38,772 nt of DNA from positions 1-38,772 of the IMG/VR virus record IMGVR_UViG_3300028563_000040; one strand, 5' to 3'. The notes beneath the pieces were generated by a model that was not told where the DNA came from, ran no database searches, and was given only the letters and a program-made list of their open reading frames with translations. Below are positions 10,865-38,772 of this stretch, in pieces. Positions within the stretch are counted from its first letter, which is position 1. Each line of letters starts with the position of its first letter. The stretch comes from a virus. The position numbers were made by a program, and so were the translations under genes.

Positions 10865-13800
10865 CACTGTTGGAGGCATCACGCTTGAGCTGAAGGCTGA
10901 GCTTGCTCAATTCACTTCAGAAATCAAACGCGGTGAATATCAGCTCAGGTCAACCGCCAAAGAGATGCAGCGCTCACTTCAGAGCGTGGCAAAAGAAACA
11001 GAGCGGACCCACAACAGCATGGTGGGTCAATTCCAGAAGATCAGCAGTGCTGCCCAGTCATTGAGCAGATCAATGGCGGGCGTCTTTGTCGGTGTCAGTG
11101 CAGCTGCCATGGTGCGGGAAGCATCAAAGCTGTCTGACACCTTCTCTGGTATCAACGCAAAGATCAAGGTTAATACCCAGTCGCAGGCTGAGTTTAACCA
11201 GGTCTTTAATCAACTCTATGACATCAGCCAAAAGAACCGGGCATCTTTTGAAGATTCGGTCACGGCTTTTCAGAACATCACATCTGTTGCCAAAGATATT
11301 GGTGCCAGCTCTACCGATATTTTGAAGCTGACTGACATTATCCAGAAGATGGGCAAGATCAGCGGTGCCAGCACCCTGGACATGGCCAACGGTCTGAGAG
11401 GCTTCACTCAGGCTCTCTCTGATGGCAACGTCCAGGCTGATGAATTTCGCCAGATCACAGACAACCTTCCTGCTCTTGCTGCACAGATTGCTTCTGCTGC
11501 TGGTATCTCGCTTGGTCAGCTCAGGAACCTGGTCAAGCAAGGAAAGGTTTCATCGAAGGATCTTTATGACCTGACCATGAAGTCTGCAGAAGATGTAGAC
11601 AAAAAATTCACGGCAGTGACAGCCACCATGTCTGGTGCGTTCCAGCAGATGGAGAACAGCCTGACTGTTGCTGTCGGCAAGATGGATAAGAGCATTGGAA
11701 CAACCAAGGCTCTTGCAAAAGCATTTGAAGAACTCGCCAAAGGCATAGGGCAGGCGGGCGATGCCTTTGTAAAGTGGAATGAGACATCCACCGGACAAAA
11801 GAAGGCTGACGGATCGCCGCTTACCGCCACAGAGAAGTTTACTGCCGACCAGGCGAAGGCATCGCGTGACCGTGCTGCCGGATGGCGTGCTTTCAGCAGG
11901 GATGTAACCGATCCTTCTGCTTACTTCGCACAGACCGATATTCACGGTCACCTGGAGATGGGGATCAGTGGCCGGGGTAGCAAGTACCTGCCGCGTGAGC
12001 TGGCTGCCAGCAATAAGCAGTATCAGAAAGATACCGGCTGGGACCCAGATTATCTGCCCGGTGCTCAGGACCTTGAAGGATCAAAAGCCTGGGGCACAAA
12101 TGCTGGCAAATTTAAATTTACTGGCACCGGTCCCAAAGGTGGCGCTGGTGGCAAGAAGTCTGATGCTGAAAGCCGATATGACCGTGAAATAAAAGAGATC
12201 ACTGAGCTTGTCGCTAAGCGCAAAGAAGAAGCGCTGGAGCTTGATCAGACAGCCAAGGGCATGGACGAACTGGCCCGGCAGTATGACAGAGAGAAGCGGC
12301 AAGTTGATAGCACCACGCTTAGTGCCAAGGAAAAGAAAGCGGCGCTCGATTCGCTTGCAAAATCCTATGCAGAGATCCGAAAGCAACAGGACTTTGAGAA
12401 GCAGCTGAAGCAACAGAAGGAAGCCGGTAAGGCAATTGATGACTTCATCAAGAAGGGCAAAGATCAGATCGCCCAGGTCGATGAAGAAGTTAAGGGCCGC
12501 ACCAATCTGAATGCGGCTCTGAAGCTTGAGGCCGAATATAAAGACTTGCTGGCAAAAGGCAACAAGGGCAGCGCTGAAAACGTTGCCAAACTGGACAACG
12601 CCCGGCAAGTTGTGGAGCAAGCAAAGGCCAATGCAGTTGCAAAAGATTCCGCTGAAATCTACGGCGAACTCAACGAGAAAACTAAGCAATATAATGCGGA
12701 TGTTGAAGCTTCGGTCACCGGTCTCAAAGAGCACAGAGAAGAGCTTGAACGGCAGCTGAAGGGTGAGCAAGACATCTCACCATTTATCCAAGCTCGTGGC
12801 GAGCTTGAAAAGAAAACAAATGAAATTCTGGAGGAGCAGAGAACCAAGCTTGCTGCAATTGAGCAAGTGCTTTCATACGATCCCGGCAATGTTAAGTCAT
12901 TACAGGACAAGCAGAATGCAGAAGCAGCAATTAATCAGACATATGAAAAGCGCGCTCAAATACTGAAAGAGATTGCCGCCGAACAGACAGCGACAAAGGC
13001 GGCCACCGATGCGCTCAAAGATCAGAAAGACCTGCTCGAAAGCATCACCGGATCATCAGCTAAGTATTCTCAGAAGGTCCAGGAGCTTTCTGACGCCTTT
13101 GACCAGGGCAAGATCACTGCCGACCAATATAACGATTCACTGAGGCAGATACACAGTAGCAATGACAAAGCATCGTCTTCTGGTCAGAGTTTTGCCAACA
13201 CCATAACCGGTGCCTTTTCCAATATGCTCAGGGGCAATCAAAGCCTGAGCCAGAGCTTTAAGCAGCTTGGAATTGACCTGGCTAACCTGGCAGCTAAGCG
13301 CTTCTTACTCCAGCCGCTGGAGAAGATGCTGGGCAATCTTTTCAACAACATCAGCAATAGTCTATTTGGTGGTGGCGGTGGTGGTCTGGGAAGTTCTGCG
13401 AGCAGCTTGGCTGGTGGCGCCCTTGGTGCCTTGGCAAAAGGCGCAGCATCTAGCTTTGGTAGTGGCGCTGCTGCTGCTACTGGTCCGGTCGGTGCGGTCA
13501 CTTCCAGTGTGCAACAAGCAGCCCAGAATGCGGTCAGCAATGCCTTCTCTGGTGTCAATTCTGGAAGCATTGGAATTACCAAGCCCATTGCAGCTCTGCC
13601 CCTGGTGGCGGCAGATGCTGCTGACATAAAGAAGGCAGACTTTGAGCGCCCGATCCTGGAAGCAGCAAAGATCCAGAATCCGACCATTGCTAAGCCAGAA
13701 TTCAACCTGTCTCAGTTCACCGAATCCCGGCACAAGAAAGATGCTTTCTATGATGCCACCTTCTGGTTGGCAGTCTTCAAAGAGATTGATATTGACCGCG

Positions 13801-15632
13801 GCTTCTTTAAGACTTCCTGGTTTGACACATCGAGCTTCAAGAAGCCTTTGCTTGACAGTGCCACGATCAAGAATGCCACCATAGACGGTGTTTCAGGCTT
13901 AGGCGGCAGCGCTTCTGGTGGCGGCTTCGGCAGTTTCCTGGGGCAGCGTGTCACTGGTGCCATTGACAGTATAGGTAATGGTATTGTCACCAACGCATTC
14001 AGCAAGCTCTTAGGCTTCGCTGGTGGTGGCATGTACAGCCCAGGCATGGGTGCTGTCCAGGTTGGAGAACAAGGCCGTGAGTTGTTTTTTCCTGGCACTG
14101 CCGGATACATCATGAATAGTGCCATGAGCAACATGTGGCTGGCAATGCAGGGCATGGCGGGCGGTAACCCCTGGCTTTCTGGCGGTCATGGTGGCGGCTT
14201 CGGTGCCGGTGGTGGCGGCTACTCACCCATGATGCCAGGCGGTGGTCTCGGTGCCGCTCCAGGCTCCGGCAACATTCCGACTGTTTCTTATACCGACTAT
14301 GCACTGAGTCAGGGCATGGGAATGAGCGCGCTTGCGGACCAAGCCGAAGCAGATTTGAGAAGTGGCAAGCGTCAAGACTATATCCAAGTCAAAAACATCC
14401 GCGATCAAGCCAATCTGTTCATGGGCGAAGCGATGAGCCAGCGTGCGACAAGCCGCTTCACTCAGACGAGCTTCCGCGCCGATCAATTGCCGTGGATGAA
14501 TATCAACACACTGAGCAAGAACTCAGGCGTCGATACGACACAGTGGCTGCCGCAAGGCGTCGGACAATACAACAATGGCCAGCTTTGGGGTGGCTTCCAA
14601 GCCTTTGGCAGCGGTGAAGGCAGCGAAGGCGTCGGCGTCGAATCGTGGAGCAATGATCCGCCTCCCGGTATCCAGCAAAGCTCGTTCAATACTTCCCGTG
14701 GAAGCGTTTACTACACGCCTGGTGCCGGCGGCTCGATCACACAGATGGCAGCTATGGGTGGTGGCAGATGGGGTTCTGTCGGAATGATGAACGCGCCCAA
14801 TGCTACGCCATGGAATGCTAATGGTGGCAATGTGCTTGGTGGTCCTGGTGGCGTCATTCCCAATTTGCCGTTTGGTTCCACTGGCAGTTATCAAAGCTTC
14901 GGCGGCAACCTGGCTCTTGGTGGCGATCTTGGCTCTTCACGCTCAAGGTCTACCCTAATTCCGCCTGAAAACTATCCTGATTACATGCAAAGAGTGTATG
15001 GGCAAGGCAACCCAAATACAACATTGGCGCCGGACATGGTGCCTGGTTTGCTCACAGGAAACGGATCACACACCACCCTTGCTGACATGCTTAAGGGTAT
15101 GGAATATATGCAAGCTGGGCGTGTAATGCCGGGAAACAGTCTGCCCTTTCATGTCACCGATTCTTTCGATGTCAGATCGAATAACAGCGGCGCCTTTGGT
15201 GGTGGTGACTTCGGCGGCTCGGATATGTCGGGCGGTTTGAACCCGCGTTATATGGGTCCATACAGCCCACAGTATTACAACAACGCGATGAACGGCGCCG
15301 CCATATTTGGTGGCATGTTGGGATCGATCAAACGCTATGGCAAGGGCGGCAAGTACAAAGGCAAAGAGCCGATCATGGTTGGAGACATGGGCAGTGAAAT
15401 CCTCTGGCCAGATTCGGCTGGCTCTGTGGTGCCTAACAACAAGATGAAAGAAGCGCTGTCACCGACCGTGAAGATCACCTTGCACAATGAGACAGGCGTG
15501 AAAGCAAACTTAACCCAACAAGTGCAGCCTGACGGCTCTGTGAAGATGTATCTAACTGCAATTGAAAACATGATGAGAGATCCAGGCAATAGTATTCACA
15601 GAACCATAAAGGATATTGCAAGAGGGAACTAA
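10851..15632 (+). CDS. tape measure protein
   Basis: The 1593-residue protein sets tail length and occupies the tube. The N-terminal 250 residues match the tape-measure N domain (SLSRSMAGVFVGVSAAAM, then GASTLDMANGLRGFTQALSDG). A long coiled-coil region follows (about 430-740), then a Gly/Ala-rich hydrophobic stretch (about 835-895). Three features are odd. Residues 924-1013 form 18 successive pentapeptides with a hydrophobic centre. The tape-measure C-terminal motif VGxxGxExxxP occurs twice (1071-1081 and 1510-1520). The roughly 430 residues between the two copies are Gly/Asn/Ser/Met-rich, with codon choice that looks different by eye. The start lies inside the T frame. Confidence 0.95.
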   Translation: MARNDTVGGITLELKAELAQFTSEIKRGEYQLRSTAKEMQRSLQSVAKETERTHNSMVGQFQKISSAAQSLSRSMAGVFVGVSAAAMVREASKLSDTFSGINAKIKVNTQSQAEFNQVFNQLYDISQKNRASFEDSVTAFQNITSVAKDIGASSTDILKLTDIIQKMGKISGASTLDMANGLRGFTQALSDGNVQADEFRQITDNLPALAAQIASAAGISLGQLRNLVKQGKVSSKDLYDLTMKSAEDVDKKFTAVTATMSGAFQQMENSLTVAVGKMDKSIGTTKALAKAFEELAKGIGQAGDAFVKWNETSTGQKKADGSPLTATEKFTADQAKASRDRAAGWRAFSRDVTDPSAYFAQTDIHGHLEMGISGRGSKYLPRELAASNKQYQKDTGWDPDYLPGAQDLEGSKAWGTNAGKFKFTGTGPKGGAGGKKSDAESRYDREIKEITELVAKRKEEALELDQTAKGMDELARQYDREKRQVDSTTLSAKEKKAALDSLAKSYAEIRKQQDFEKQLKQQKEAGKAIDDFIKKGKDQIAQVDEEVKGRTNLNAALKLEAEYKDLLAKGNKGSAENVAKLDNARQVVEQAKANAVAKDSAEIYGELNEKTKQYNADVEASVTGLKEHREELERQLKGEQDISPFIQARGELEKKTNEILEEQRTKLAAIEQVLSYDPGNVKSLQDKQNAEAAINQTYEKRAQILKEIAAEQTATKAATDALKDQKDLLESITGSSAKYSQKVQELSDAFDQGKITADQYNDSLRQIHSSNDKASSSGQSFANTITGAFSNMLRGNQSLSQSFKQLGIDLANLAAKRFLLQPLEKMLGNLFNNISNSLFGGGGGGLGSSASSLAGGALGALAKGAASSFGSGAAAATGPVGAVTSSVQQAAQNAVSNAFSGVNSGSIGITKPIAALPLVAADAADIKKADFERPILEAAKIQNPTIAKPEFNLSQFTESRHKKDAFYDATFWLAVFKEIDIDRGFFKTSWFDTSSFKKPLLDSATIKNATIDGVSGLGGSASGGGFGSFLGQRVTGAIDSIGNGIVTNAFSKLLGFAGGGMYSPGMGAVQVGEQGRELFFPGTAGYIMNSAMSNMWLAMQGMAGGNPWLSGGHGGGFGAGGGGYSPMMPGGGLGAAPGSGNIPTVSYTDYALSQGMGMSALADQAEADLRSGKRQDYIQVKNIRDQANLFMGEAMSQRATSRFTQTSFRADQLPWMNINTLSKNSGVDTTQWLPQGVGQYNNGQLWGGFQAFGSGEGSEGVGVESWSNDPPPGIQQSSFNTSRGSVYYTPGAGGSITQMAAMGGGRWGSVGMMNAPNATPWNANGGNVLGGPGGVIPNLPFGSTGSYQSFGGNLALGGDLGSSRSRSTLIPPENYPDYMQRVYGQGNPNTTLAPDMVPGLLTGNGSHTTLADMLKGMEYMQAGRVMPGNSLPFHVTDSFDVRSNNSGAFGGGDFGGSDMSGGLNPRYMGPYSPQYYNNAMNGAAIFGGMLGSIKRYGKGGKYKGKEPIMVGDMGSEILWPDSAGSVVPNNKMKEALSPTVKITLHNETGVKANLTQQVQPDGSVKMYLTAIENMMRDPGNSIHRTIKDIARGN
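13620..13889 (+). other. pentapeptide-repeat-like domain within the tape measure
   Basis: Residues 924-1013 divide without gaps into 18 blocks of five, from ADIKK and ADFER to ATIKN and ATIDG. Position 3 of each block is F, I or L in 17 of 18 (the exception is SRHKK), and position 1 is usually a small residue (A, P, S or G). This is the periodicity of right-handed quadrilateral beta-helix (pentapeptide repeat) proteins. The fold is inferred from periodicity alone. Confidence 0.65.
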
Positions 15633-15986: not shown

Positions 15987-16468
15987 TGAGAACGATCAAC
16001 GCAGCGGCAATAGCGCTGATCAATAATCCGAACTGCAACAAAGCCTTCATCTGCTTGATCGAGATCTCGCACCCACAGCTGGACACTCTTTATCTGGCTA
16101 GAGATTCGGCTGATGTTGTTTCCAACGGGCGCACCTATACGGCTTTTCCGTTTGATATTGATCTGCTCGATGAGTCGCAGAATGAAATCACCGGCAGCAA
16201 GCTCAGCCTGGGCTGGGTAGATTCGTCAATCTTAGACCTGGTGCAGAAGGTCAATGAGACACCGGGCACGGTGGCGGCAAAATGGGTAGTTGAAGGCGAC
16301 ACTAATACGGTGCTCTGGCAGATTGATCCACCTTTGATGATCAAGAAGGCAACTGCAACGGTTAAAAAGGCTGACTTCGATCTGGGGCTTCGGTCTCTGG
16401 AAGATGAAGAAGTGCCGGTCTATGGCAAGGGTCCGAACACTCACCCAGGACTTTATGCAAACCGATGA
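15986..16468 (+). CDS. DUF1833-like tail tip protein (lambda L-like)
   Basis: This 160-residue protein shows the DUF1833 layout: an N-terminal LIEISHPQLDTLYLARDSAD, a GRTYTAFPFDIDLLDES segment, and a C-terminal ADFDLGLRSLEDEEVPVYG. In lambda-like tails the equivalent L protein is part of the tip complex and binds an iron-sulfur cluster, but no Cys cluster is visible here (only two Cys near residues 17 and 22). It shares one base with the previous gene and has an ATGA overlap with the next. Confidence 0.78.
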   Translation: MRTINAAAIALINNPNCNKAFICLIEISHPQLDTLYLARDSADVVSNGRTYTAFPFDIDLLDESQNEITGSKLSLGWVDSSILDLVQKVNETPGTVAAKWVVEGDTNTVLWQIDPPLMIKKATATVKKADFDLGLRSLEDEEVPVYGKGPNTHPGLYANR

Positions 16469-16869
16469 CCTGGGCTAATGACTATGTTGGCATTCCTTAC
16501 ACTCACCTGGGGCGCACTGCTGAAGGTGCTGATTGCTACGGTCTGATCAGGCTTGCAATGTTGGAGCAATTCAACATCGACATGCCAGCGCTCACCACAG
16601 ATAGTGCACACACGCCCAGGGCGCTGGCTAAAGAATTCCTTGCACTCAGGCGGGTTTTCACGAAAGTGGAGAACGCCCAGGAGGGTGATCTGATCATCTT
16701 CAAAACGCTGGGACAACCTAATCACGTAGGCATCGTAATAGGCATAGATTCTTATTTCCTGCACACAGAGCCGATGAAGAACGCTTGCATTGAAAGCTGG
16801 AAGTCTTCGATGTGGCGTCACGTCTTAGACTCTGTTTGGAGGCATAAGAGCAAGTGTCTGCACAAGTAG
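16465..16869 (+). CDS. NlpC/P60-family tail tip peptidase (lambda K-like)
   Basis: This 134-residue protein has an NlpC/P60 core: catalytic Cys24 in GADCYGL, then QEGDLIIFK, His87 in NHVGIV, and a possible third residue His100 in YFLHTEP. Such tail-tip hydrolases cut peptide cross-links in peptidoglycan or process the tip. Unlike lambda K it has no N-terminal JAB/MPN metallopeptidase domain. It begins at an ATGA overlap and ends inside the J-like gene. Confidence 0.87.
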   Translation: MTWANDYVGIPYTHLGRTAEGADCYGLIRLAMLEQFNIDMPALTTDSAHTPRALAKEFLALRRVFTKVENAQEGDLIIFKTLGQPNHVGIVIGIDSYFLHTEPMKNACIESWKSSMWRHVLDSVWRHKSKCLHK

Positions 16870-20556: not shown

Positions 20557-22440
20557 ATGACTGCTGTACCAGCTGCCGGTTATCCGTCTAACTCTGCCCG
20601 CACGCAGGGCGACATAAAGACGTATGAAGAGACAATGCTGACACTCTATAAAGAAGTGTTTGGCGGCTCTCCGAAGCAGACACTGACGCTGGATACAAAC
20701 GGCAAGATCACGCCGGTTGCTGGTTGCTCTTATTATGCGCTCGATACTTTTGCAGCTGCATCAACAGACCAGCTAGATAACTTCTTCGCAACCAATTTGC
20801 GCGATGGTCAGATGATTGCTTTCTGTGGTGCGAATAATGCGCACATAGTCACGATCAGAAACGCCCAGGGCGCTTCTCTTAACTTCGTGCTGTCGGATAC
20901 TGCCGATTTCCAATTAGAGAGCACCAAAGACTTCATTGCCTTTATTTACTCAACTGGCGGCTCTGGCACCCTGACAGAGCTGTTCCGAAGCGACACTATC
21001 AGGTCTGTGCGCCTTGCTGGTGCTTCTGTTGAGACTGTCACCGGTATTGTGTCGGATGCCTTCACGCCTTCGACCTTCATGCACTCTCTGAGTTGTGAAA
21101 CCGGTACGCCTGGTACTGCTACGGATAACGTCTCTCAGATCGCACAGACAACGCCCTATCTCAAGAATGTGATCATTCACCCTGAGACTGTTGGTGACAT
21201 CATCTCTGTCACAAATAACACGGGTGGCACTGGCAAGCTCCTCACCAAAGATGGACAAACCAGGCAGCTCACGCACCCTAATGAATTCCTTTGGGCGCAA
21301 CAAAAGGGCACGACCTGGGAAGAGATCATGAGCTTCCCTCACTTTCCGATTGAGTACATCTTTAGTGGTGGAAGGATCAATAGTTCTAACACTGTTGCAG
21401 ATTCTGCGGCTGGTGGAACCACCTGCTATCTATTGCCGTTTGGGCAGCATGGCAAATGGCTTAGCGGCCTCAGGGGTAGTAAATGGATACCATCGCCTCT
21501 CGATTTTTCTAGCCCGCCTTCGGTTGCTTATCCTAACGTCAAGTTCTGTGGCGGCTGGGTTCATGCCTATCTAGGCACAGACAATAAATGGAACCTTGAA
21601 ATAGAGCGCTGGGATGGTGGATCGCAGGTTACCGGCTCGGTCTCAAGCGTCACTATCGCCAACCCTGCTGTGGTCACTACCGGCGCCACTCACGGTCTGT
21701 CTGTTGGTGACTGGGTGGCCTTCGATGGTGGCGCCGGTACGGCATTCACGGACAGCTCCAAAGGCCTCAATTCTAATGGCACCTTCCCGACTAACTTCTT
21801 TAGAATCACTGCCACGCCTTCAGGCACTACCTTCACACTGGGCGGTCATTCTACCAGTGGATTAGCAAGTTCAACCGCTACCTGGTACAAAGTGCCACAG
21901 CCAACCGCCTTGGCCTTGAAAGATGGAATTCCAACAAAGACAGGCGATTCAACACGGCGCTGTGTAGGCGGTTTCTACACCGGTTATGTTGCTGGCACTG
22001 TGAACACGGGCAGCAATGGATCGATGATCGTTTCTTTGTTGAATCCGATCACGAAGAGTTTTTCGAAGGCGGTTAATGCTTTCACGCTGAATTCCAGTGG
22101 CGTTAATATACCGATGCAAGACTACACAAATGGTCTATTTAGAGCGCTTGCGATTGATGTTAACAATTTCCTTCGCATTGAGCACCAGGTTGATTTGACC
22201 AATGGAAGCACCTCTTTCCCGACTCTGCGTGTGGCGATTGATAGCCTTGATGGCTCTAATACTTGGAATACCCCGCCATTGCAAGTGTCTACCACCGGTG
22301 GTACTAACTGGAAGGCGGCAGCGCCTTTCTCTTATGTTCCCACTCTGGGGATTCATTTGTTTGCACTGATCGGGCAGACAAGCTCTTCTCAAAATAACAC
22401 TGTTAACACTTCAACAGCATTTTTCACGTTGGCTGTTTAG
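20557..22440 (+). CDS. tail fibre or tip-associated structural protein
   Basis: The 627-residue product follows J, where side fibres or tip appendages are found. It is rich in Gly, Thr, Ser and Asn and in short beta strands. It contains a domain with TTGATHGLSVGDWVAFDG (about residues 370-390) that recurs in phage structural proteins. No transmembrane segment, collagen repeat or obvious catalytic motif is seen. The ribosome-binding site is weak (AGGG, 6 bases before the ATG). Receptor binding is a reasonable guess but not shown. Confidence 0.75.
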   Translation: MTAVPAAGYPSNSARTQGDIKTYEETMLTLYKEVFGGSPKQTLTLDTNGKITPVAGCSYYALDTFAAASTDQLDNFFATNLRDGQMIAFCGANNAHIVTIRNAQGASLNFVLSDTADFQLESTKDFIAFIYSTGGSGTLTELFRSDTIRSVRLAGASVETVTGIVSDAFTPSTFMHSLSCETGTPGTATDNVSQIAQTTPYLKNVIIHPETVGDIISVTNNTGGTGKLLTKDGQTRQLTHPNEFLWAQQKGTTWEEIMSFPHFPIEYIFSGGRINSSNTVADSAAGGTTCYLLPFGQHGKWLSGLRGSKWIPSPLDFSSPPSVAYPNVKFCGGWVHAYLGTDNKWNLEIERWDGGSQVTGSVSSVTIANPAVVTTGATHGLSVGDWVAFDGGAGTAFTDSSKGLNSNGTFPTNFFRITATPSGTTFTLGGHSTSGLASSTATWYKVPQPTALALKDGIPTKTGDSTRRCVGGFYTGYVAGTVNTGSNGSMIVSLLNPITKSFSKAVNAFTLNSSGVNIPMQDYTNGLFRALAIDVNNFLRIEHQVDLTNGSTSFPTLRVAIDSLDGSNTWNTPPLQVSTTGGTNWKAAAPFSYVPTLGIHLFALIGQTSSSQNNTVNTSTAFFTLAV

Positions 22441-22461: not shown

Positions 22462-22833
22462 ATGAACGTTTCAGATTTTTTGGCATCATTCAAAGAGCCG
22501 GCAAAAATTGCAGGCGGTATCATCAACGGTGTCAGCAAAGCTGCCCAGGGCGCAGCTGAAATCAAAGCGAAGTTTGACCTGATCAACACCGACACAGATC
22601 ACAACGGCTTCACTCAGGCCCAGGACATAAAGAACTCTGTGGTGAAGCTGCATGATAGAGCGGTCGGGCCGACAGCAGTACTGATCAAAAGAACCAAGGA
22701 AGATTGGACCGCTGAAATTAGCTTCTATGACACAGAGCTGAAAGTGCTCGGCTCTTTTGTCGGTGGTCTCTTCGGTGAACTTCTGGCACAACACACAGCA
22801 CCGGCAGCGGTGTCTGAGAATGGAGCTGTATAA
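22462..22833 (+). CDS. unknown protein with EF-hand-like loop, first gene of the lysis cassette
   Basis: This 123-residue protein follows a strong AAGGAG site. Residues 1-40 are amphipathic (AGGIINGVSKAAQGAAEIKA). Residues 44-55 fit the calcium-binding loop DxDxNGxxxxxD, as in EF-hand or dockerin-type loops. The C-terminal 30 residues include a hydrophobic stretch (VLGSFVGGLFGELLA). No family is recognised. It may be a virion-associated or lysis-linked protein. A single calcium loop is only suggestive. Confidence 0.75.
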   Translation: MNVSDFLASFKEPAKIAGGIINGVSKAAQGAAEIKAKFDLINTDTDHNGFTQAQDIKNSVVKLHDRAVGPTAVLIKRTKEDWTAEISFYDTELKVLGSFVGGLFGELLAQHTAPAAVSENGAV

Positions 22834-38121: not shown

Positions 38122-38772
38122 CTATACTGCCGCTTTTGCTGCTTCCAGTTTTGCGGTAAACTCATCGATCCAATTCACAGCAATTGCTGCCAATTGATTA
38201 TTCTCTGGTGTCGATCCTTTTGTGATTCCAAGGAAGAATCTTTCTATTGGCCTGCTGCCGTTTGGTGTGATTCCCTCAAGCTCGGTGTACTTGACACCAC
38301 GTAAATAAGCAATAGATCCCAGCAAGCATCCAAGATTGCAGGCGCTTTCATAACAAGTGCCATTCACTTTCCCCTCAATCAGCAACTGGCGAAGGCCGGC
38401 GGCCTCATGAGAGGCATTCAGCAGAACTTCAAAGAAGTCATTCTTGATTGTTCCAAGGCTGGCACCATCAAGGCGGGCACCATCAAGGCTGGCACCATCA
38501 AGGCTGGCACGAACTAGGCGGGCACCATCAAGGCTGGCACGAACTAGGCTGGCACCATCAAGGCGGGCACCATCAAGGCTGGCACGAACTAGGCTGGCAC
38601 GAACTAGGCTGGCACGAACTAGGCTGGCACGAACTAGGCTGGCACGAACTAGGCTGGCACCATCAAGGCTGGCACCATCAAGGCTGGCACCATCAAGGCT
38701 GGCACCATCAAGGCTGGCACCATCAAGGCTGGCACGAACTAGGCTGGCACCATCAAGGCTGGCACGAACTAG
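38122..38772 (-). CDS. pentapeptide-repeat protein, 5' end outside the window
   Basis: The frame is open from the window edge for 216 residues. The first 104 consist of pentapeptides of two kinds, A(S/R)LDG and A(S/R)LVR, predicting a right-handed square beta-helix of about five turns within the window. A C-terminal globular domain follows (NDFFEVLLNASHEAAGLRQL, GTCYESACNLGCLLGSIAYL with three Cys, ELEGITPNGSRPIERFF). That domain recurs, as far as I recall, in other phage and bacterial pentapeptide proteins. A start codon is not seen; an internal TTG at 38385 is not a true start because the frame continues. Roles of such proteins include DNA mimicry (gyrase protection), but this one is not determined. 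Confidence 0.88.
   Translation of the reverse strand, partial: LVRASLDGASLVRASLDGASLDGASLDGASLDGASLDGASLVRASLVRASLVRASLVRASLVRASLDGARLDGASLVRASLDGARLVRASLDGASLDGARLDGASLGTIKNDFFEVLLNASHEAAGLRQLLIEGKVNGTCYESACNLGCLLGSIAYLRGVKYTELEGITPNGSRPIERFFLGITKGSTPENNQLAAIAVNWIDEFTAKLEAAKAAV
38461..38772 (-). repeat. tandem array of 15-bp units (20 full, 1 partial)
   Basis: On the plus strand the units are GGCACCATCAAGGCT (encoding SLDGA on the minus strand) and GGCACGAACTAGGCT (encoding SLVRA), with a final G in three units giving Arg instead of Ser. Of 20 full units, 10 are S-DG, 2 R-DG, 7 S-VR and 1 R-VR. Units of one kind are identical at the base level, with no silent variation. Confidence 0.95.

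Follow-up and report, generated by a model that had tools for sequence, protein, structure and literature searches.

In siphophage structures, the tape measure protein forms a trimer inside the tail tube, its C-terminal end is held in the baseplate core, and infection expels it (PMC11445458); the lambda protein is likewise placed and released on infection (PMC11101478). Some tape measures carry an additional domain toward the C-terminus, as does pb2 of phage T5, for which a zinc carboxypeptidase motif has been reported in that region (PMC11445458). In another tail-like injection machine, the contractile type VI secretion system, pentapeptide repeats occur in TvpB and TvpAB (DUF2169), of which TvpB is predicted to fasten the spike tip complex; these are separate, chaperone-like proteins whose secretion was not detected (PMC13373197). 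A literature search, in which some papers were judged by title, found no pentapeptide repeat described within a tape measure protein.

The window analyzed here is the whole 38,772-base stretch of IMGVR_UViG_3300028563_000040, an uncultured phage record. Its tape measure protein contains a module that shares with pentapeptide-repeat proteins (PF00805, PF13599, and PF13576) more than eight contiguous repeats, a small residue at position i-2, a large hydrophobic residue at position i, polar residues elsewhere, a register kept across homologues, and a reciprocal profile match. It differs from them in lying inside a phage tape measure, in the dominance of Ile and Phe at the centre, in its sub-threshold Pfam score, and in being known from sequence alone. 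With two phages as its known carriers, the joining of a pentapeptide module to a tape measure protein constitutes a new domain combination.

The tape measure gene and its repeat array

Assignment of the gene product to the TMP_3 tape measures was based on its PF20155 domain (Table 1) and its position within the tail gene order, and nearly all of its PHROG matches are to tail-length tape measure families. Genes for terminase, portal, prohead protease, and capsid lie upstream, and genes matching DUF1833, NlpC/P60, and a J-like protein (Pfam and PHROG) lie downstream. As in other TMP_3 tape measures, an N-terminal domain is followed by a charged helical middle and a Gly-rich C-terminal region with FAxGG, and the gene stands ahead of the minor tail genes. 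The additional domain is found toward the C-terminus as in T5 pb2, but in contrast to pb2 it gave no enzymatic match, and an NlpC/P60 domain is encoded here in a separate gene (16465-16869), so cell-wall-cutting activity is likely encoded outside the tape measure. The two genes that immediately follow the J-like gene (20557-22440, 627 aa, and 22462-22833, 123 aa) had no Pfam or PHROG match; their products are possible receptor-binding or fibre proteins. The closest records, two metagenomic fragments, are identical to the window across the tape measure. A lineage-specific profile of the middle of the tape measure gave no match, and so no host, in 399 Pseudomonadota genomes.

Table 1. Coordinates of the tape measure gene, its segments, and other features of the window
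Feature	Position	Strand	Basis
Tape measure protein gene, 1593 aa	10851-15632	+	ORF; PF20155 E 1.7e-49
TMP_3 domain (PF20155), residues 89-280	11115-11690	+	Pfam scan
Conserved segment upstream of module, residues 776-841 (...QSFKQLGIDLANLAAKRFLLQPLEKML...)	13176-13373	+	conserved with L180
Gly/Ala/Ser-rich linker preceding module, residues 842-913	13374-13589	+	sequence
Pentapeptide-repeat module, residues 914-1013, 20 blocks	13590-13889	+	repeat and profile evidence
Site of L180 insertion QVTLNRPEID (ten residues, exactly two blocks), after residue 927	13629-13634	+	alignment
Irregular block SRHKK plus D964, residues 959-964	13725-13742	+	identical in L180
Conserved putative surface stretch R983-T1010 (RGFFKTSWFDTSSFKKPxLDxATxKNAT)	13797-13880	+	window against L180
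Gly-rich linker following module, residues 1014-1055	13890-14015	+	sequence
FAGGGMYSPGMGAVQVGEQGRELFFPG motif (FAGGG/FAxGG), residues 1056-1082	14016-14096	+	conserved in L180
NlpC/P60 peptidase-like tail protein	16465-16869		PF00877 E 3.5e-14
Second pentapeptide protein, ASLDG/ASLVR repeats	38122-38772	minus	PF00805 E 2.5e-22; cut by contig end

A sequence-only reading of the window had proposed that tape measure residues 924-1013 (13620-13889) divide into 18 gapless blocks of five with F, I, or L at the centre of 17. Blocks 1-9 read ADIKK ADFER PILEA AKIQN PTIAK PEFNL SQFTE SRHKK DAFYD, and blocks 10-18 read ATFWL AVFKE IDIDR GFFKT SWFDT SSFKK PLLDS ATIKN ATIDG. Counts of F, I, and L in the five registers of these blocks were 1, 3, 17, 0, and 2, which confirms the proposed division; the best count among 20,000 shuffles was 12. 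The 18 blocks therefore stand, but the array starts two blocks further upstream, at residue 914 (position 13590; AALPL VAADA ...).

Over the full 20-block array, the centre is F, I, or L in 18 blocks, a count that none of 100,000 shuffles reached (maximum 14), and the first position holds a small residue or Pro (A, G, S, T, C, V, or P) in 18 of the 20. On a position-weighted pentapeptide scale the module scored 45.9, and 390 shuffled long ORFs reached no more than 15.5. The published five-position consensus, with L or F in the centre, was matched at 61 of 100 positions (equalled by 1 of 20,000 shuffles); the central residue is L or F in 12 of the 20 blocks and Ile in most of the others.

Register and surface conservation in a related phage

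A scan of viral contigs for the module found a related phage, L180, which is part of the 49,982-base viral contig IMGVR_UViG_3300012921_000001. Its tape measure (1591 residues) is 52% identical to that of the window, its minor tail protein and J are 73% and 68% identical to their counterparts, and the tail gene order is the same. The L180 module occupies the same location as 22 contiguous blocks and scored 51.2, with a small residue or Pro at i-2 in 19 of the 22 blocks and a hydrophobic residue at i in 19 of the 22; 70 of its 110 positions fit the published consensus, which none of 20,000 shuffles achieved. The sole gap inside the module is ten residues long, equal to two blocks, so the five-residue register, whose loss in homologues would by the sequence-only reading have spoken against the module, is kept in this single independent homologue. 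The irregular SRHKK block has H at its centre in both versions.

The flanks of the module are Gly/Ala-rich and of low complexity, and the period could in principle be a chance product of such a region. We regard the probability of this as vanishingly small: set against the shuffled maximum of 15.5, the homologue also scores far above it, genuine pentapeptide proteins score at least 45 where other tape measures score at most about 12, and the shuffle tests never approached the observed count of central residues. The sequence-only reading had held that chance could hardly account for the period, and the independent homologue L180 rules that explanation out.

Positions i-2 and i point inward in pentapeptide helices. 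The window and L180 share the same residue at 27 of 40 predicted inward positions, compared with 25 of 60 outward ones (Fisher p 0.014), which is the pattern expected from selection on a pentapeptide core. Identity at outward positions is itself uneven: the C-terminal half has 19 of 33 such positions identical and the N-terminal half 6 of 27 (p 0.008), as would suit a binding surface, with a peak in blocks 17-22 (14 of 18). With only two independent sequences, the argument from a conserved surface is thin; a viral contig scan for pentapeptide relatives that would deepen the alignment found none.

Family assignment and predicted fold

Two Pfam families, PF00805 and PF13599, had been named as targets for a profile search with the segment. 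In direct searches, PF13599 was the best match for both module versions (E 0.0036 for the window and 0.00069 for L180), but the scores of 15.6-20.1 bits lie below the curated cut-off of 38, which is a database threshold and no biological definition, and PF00805 gave no direct match. The second-best match of both versions, also sub-threshold, was the SV2 luminal domain (LD_SV2, PF23894), which we take to be a beta-helix family like PF13599. This eukaryotic domain is a small pentapeptide beta-helix used as a docking surface, and its match reflects the shared repeat.

For a reciprocal comparison, a two-row profile of the window and L180 modules was run blind on six-frame translations of 754 genomes (385 from one class and 369 from another). 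Matches were obtained in 63 of the 754 genomes at E 0.001, with a best E value of 1e-10. PF00805, PF13599, and PF13576 were all present in each of the 47 matched ORFs that were scanned together and in each of eight larger ones that were scanned separately, and no TMP_3 tape measure was present at any of the match loci examined. The retrieved loci L274, L286, and L298 encode large DUF2169-pentapeptide proteins resembling type VI secretion TvpAB. In hhalign, the module aligned with the 47 pentapeptide proteins at 95% probability (E 3.4e-8), compared with 0.1% for a control tail protein, and the 47 score at least 45 on the simple pentapeptide scale. Based on the profile retrieval, the hhalign result, and the pentapeptide scores, the segment was filed as a divergent pentapeptide-repeat module; together with the repeat and the L180 homologue, the profile matches support the proposal that such a module lies inside the tape measure protein.

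A sequence search of the PDB with the module gave no significant match, the best pentapeptide match being MfpA (E 1.5). AlphaFold2 returned a mean pLDDT of 34.7 with one and with three input sequences, drawing short low-confidence helices and no usable model; at this confidence the results were not taken as evidence against a beta-helix. Given the sub-threshold Pfam scores and the AlphaFold2 outcome, we infer the fold from the repeat and its relatives: residues 914-1013 very probably wind, in about five coils, into a right-handed square beta-helix.

A real period could also be compatible with a different structure, namely a hydrophobic stretch, partly extended or amphipathic, which would enter the membrane on ejection. 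The short helices drawn by AlphaFold2 in place of a beta-helix, the sub-threshold Pfam matches, and the large hydrophobic centre residues would suit such a stretch, as would the view that ejected tape measures form channels (PMC11445458). We nonetheless consider it quite improbable, because a period of exactly five is incompatible with any regular helix, a long hydrophobic segment was looked for within the module and none was found, the profile searches lead to pentapeptide proteins only, and the ten-residue indel preserves the register.

Certain pentapeptide-repeat proteins imitate DNA to bind gyrase (PMC8145042), and tape measures are ejected. The sequence-only reading had raised an ejected DNA mimic, which would act in the manner of MfpA or Qnr on gyrase or another host DNA-binding enzyme. 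The charge of the module disfavours this, being near neutral in both versions: K plus R against D plus E is 14 to 15 in the window (net -1, 100 residues) and 14 to 13 in L180 (net +1, 110 residues). MfpA/Qnr-type proteins form eight or nine coils and dimerise through a helix, whereas the module would have about five coils, with no separate C-terminal capping helix apparent, and DNA mimicry is in our judgement very improbable.

Distribution, placement, and candidate role

The module is unusual among tape measures, as had been suggested. In a set of 180 TMP_3 ORFs taken from viral contigs and genome contigs, it was seen only in two lineages, with a next-best score of 12.2. Another 38 TMP_3 ORFs, sampled from Pseudomonadota genomes regardless of the module, reached a maximum of 10.9; the module is absent from 214 other TMP_3 tape measure ORFs, many of them mutually related and all from this one family. 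Scans of viral and genome contigs for the tape measure, the module, and the neighbouring genes likewise found the module in two lineages only. When 50,697 phage records were searched by tblastn, the window module returned nothing at E up to 1 and the L180 module only a non-significant match (E 5). Of 406 phage records with pentapeptide proteins, 60 were examined, and in none of these was the protein annotated as a tape measure.

The second pentapeptide protein that had been noted at the right edge of the window is real (Table 1) and is separate from the tape measure module. Its DNA contains a 15-base tandem array of 20.8 copies (38454-38765), which may explain where the assembly stops. No PF00805 match was found in the L180 record, which may be a fragment; a functional link between this protein and the tape measure module is unsupported, since a protein of the right-edge type is absent from that possibly fragmentary record.

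Within the tape measure, the module is positioned as first described, downstream of the long charged helical region and before the C-terminal region, about 580 residues from the C-terminus. The conserved segment upstream of it has a weak match in just two unrelated tape measures and presumably resembles the C-terminal helix of lambda-type tape measures, while the FAGGGMYSPGMGAVQVGEQGRELFFPG motif downstream is of the type usual in tape measure C-terminal regions. In L159, an unrelated tape measure, about 28 residues separate the counterpart of the upstream segment from a similar motif, against about 215 here, which from this one example is weak evidence that the module is an insertion. Gly-rich motifs at 14016-14096 (FAGGGMYSPGMGAVQVGEQGRELFFP) and at about 15335-15435 (YGKGGKYKGKEPIMVGDMGSEILWP) resemble each other and seem to be copies of an internal repeat that has diverged, of a kind typical of the C-terminal part of tape measures.

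The conserved outer surface of its C-terminal half leads us to read the module as a rigid docking element, acting in the tail tip or after ejection. That it is a pentapeptide beta-helix with this role, confined to one small lineage and no part of the measuring rod, is a proposal to which we give an even chance. Flanked on either side by a flexible Gly/Ala-rich linker, with the helical measuring rod before it and the C-terminal region after it, the module would sit in the distal tail of the virion and would leave the tail together with the tape measure protein on infection. Once ejected, it would use the conserved outward-facing side of the C-terminal coils to bind a partner, candidates being a tail-tip protein, a second copy of the module, or a host envelope protein. 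The data fit docking to a tail-tip protein before ejection and docking to an envelope protein after it; the more specific case, in which the ejected beta-helix docks on a host envelope protein and guides DNA entry, a non-enzymatic role that would be new for tape measures, seems to us unlikely. Among the roles named in the sequence-only reading, those of a plug and of an element that binds the tip or the membrane are possible. Speaking against the docking view are the partial fit to the published consensus, the sub-threshold Pfam scores, and the low AlphaFold2 confidence, and the distance of the module from the C-terminus counts against placing it exactly at the tip.

With the same fold, the module might instead serve as a structural filler or latch, packed into the tail tip or the distal part of the tube, that retains the tape measure before ejection, for which host contact would be unnecessary. 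The tail tube is about 40 Å wide, and three helices of 18-27 Å placed side by side would be tight, which speaks against such packing and leaves the state of the module in the virion uncertain. TvpB is the nearest functional parallel to the module, although the latter lies within a tape measure: TvpB is predicted to form a 'seat belt' around the type VI spike tip, and a role in filling the baseplate cavity has been proposed for Tvp complexes (PMC13373197). The DUF2169-pentapeptide proteins were retrieved by the module profile itself, and the good conservation of the adjacent tail genes in L180 makes a conserved phage partner plausible. The part of the tape measure resolved in the baseplate comprises only the last tens of residues (PMC11445458), a long way from the module, and we hold the filler or latch to be somewhat unlikely.

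Most pictures of tape measures show long helical rods, and questions remain about the way they pass the envelope and guide DNA. As a rigid, non-helical, soluble unit with a conserved surface, the docking module proposed here would provide a small, expressible handle on the partners of a tape measure after ejection, and the storage of three copies inside a narrow tube presents a packing puzzle. With pentapeptide proteins recently reported around the type VI spike tip as well, tail-like injectors may employ this fold more widely than had been assumed.
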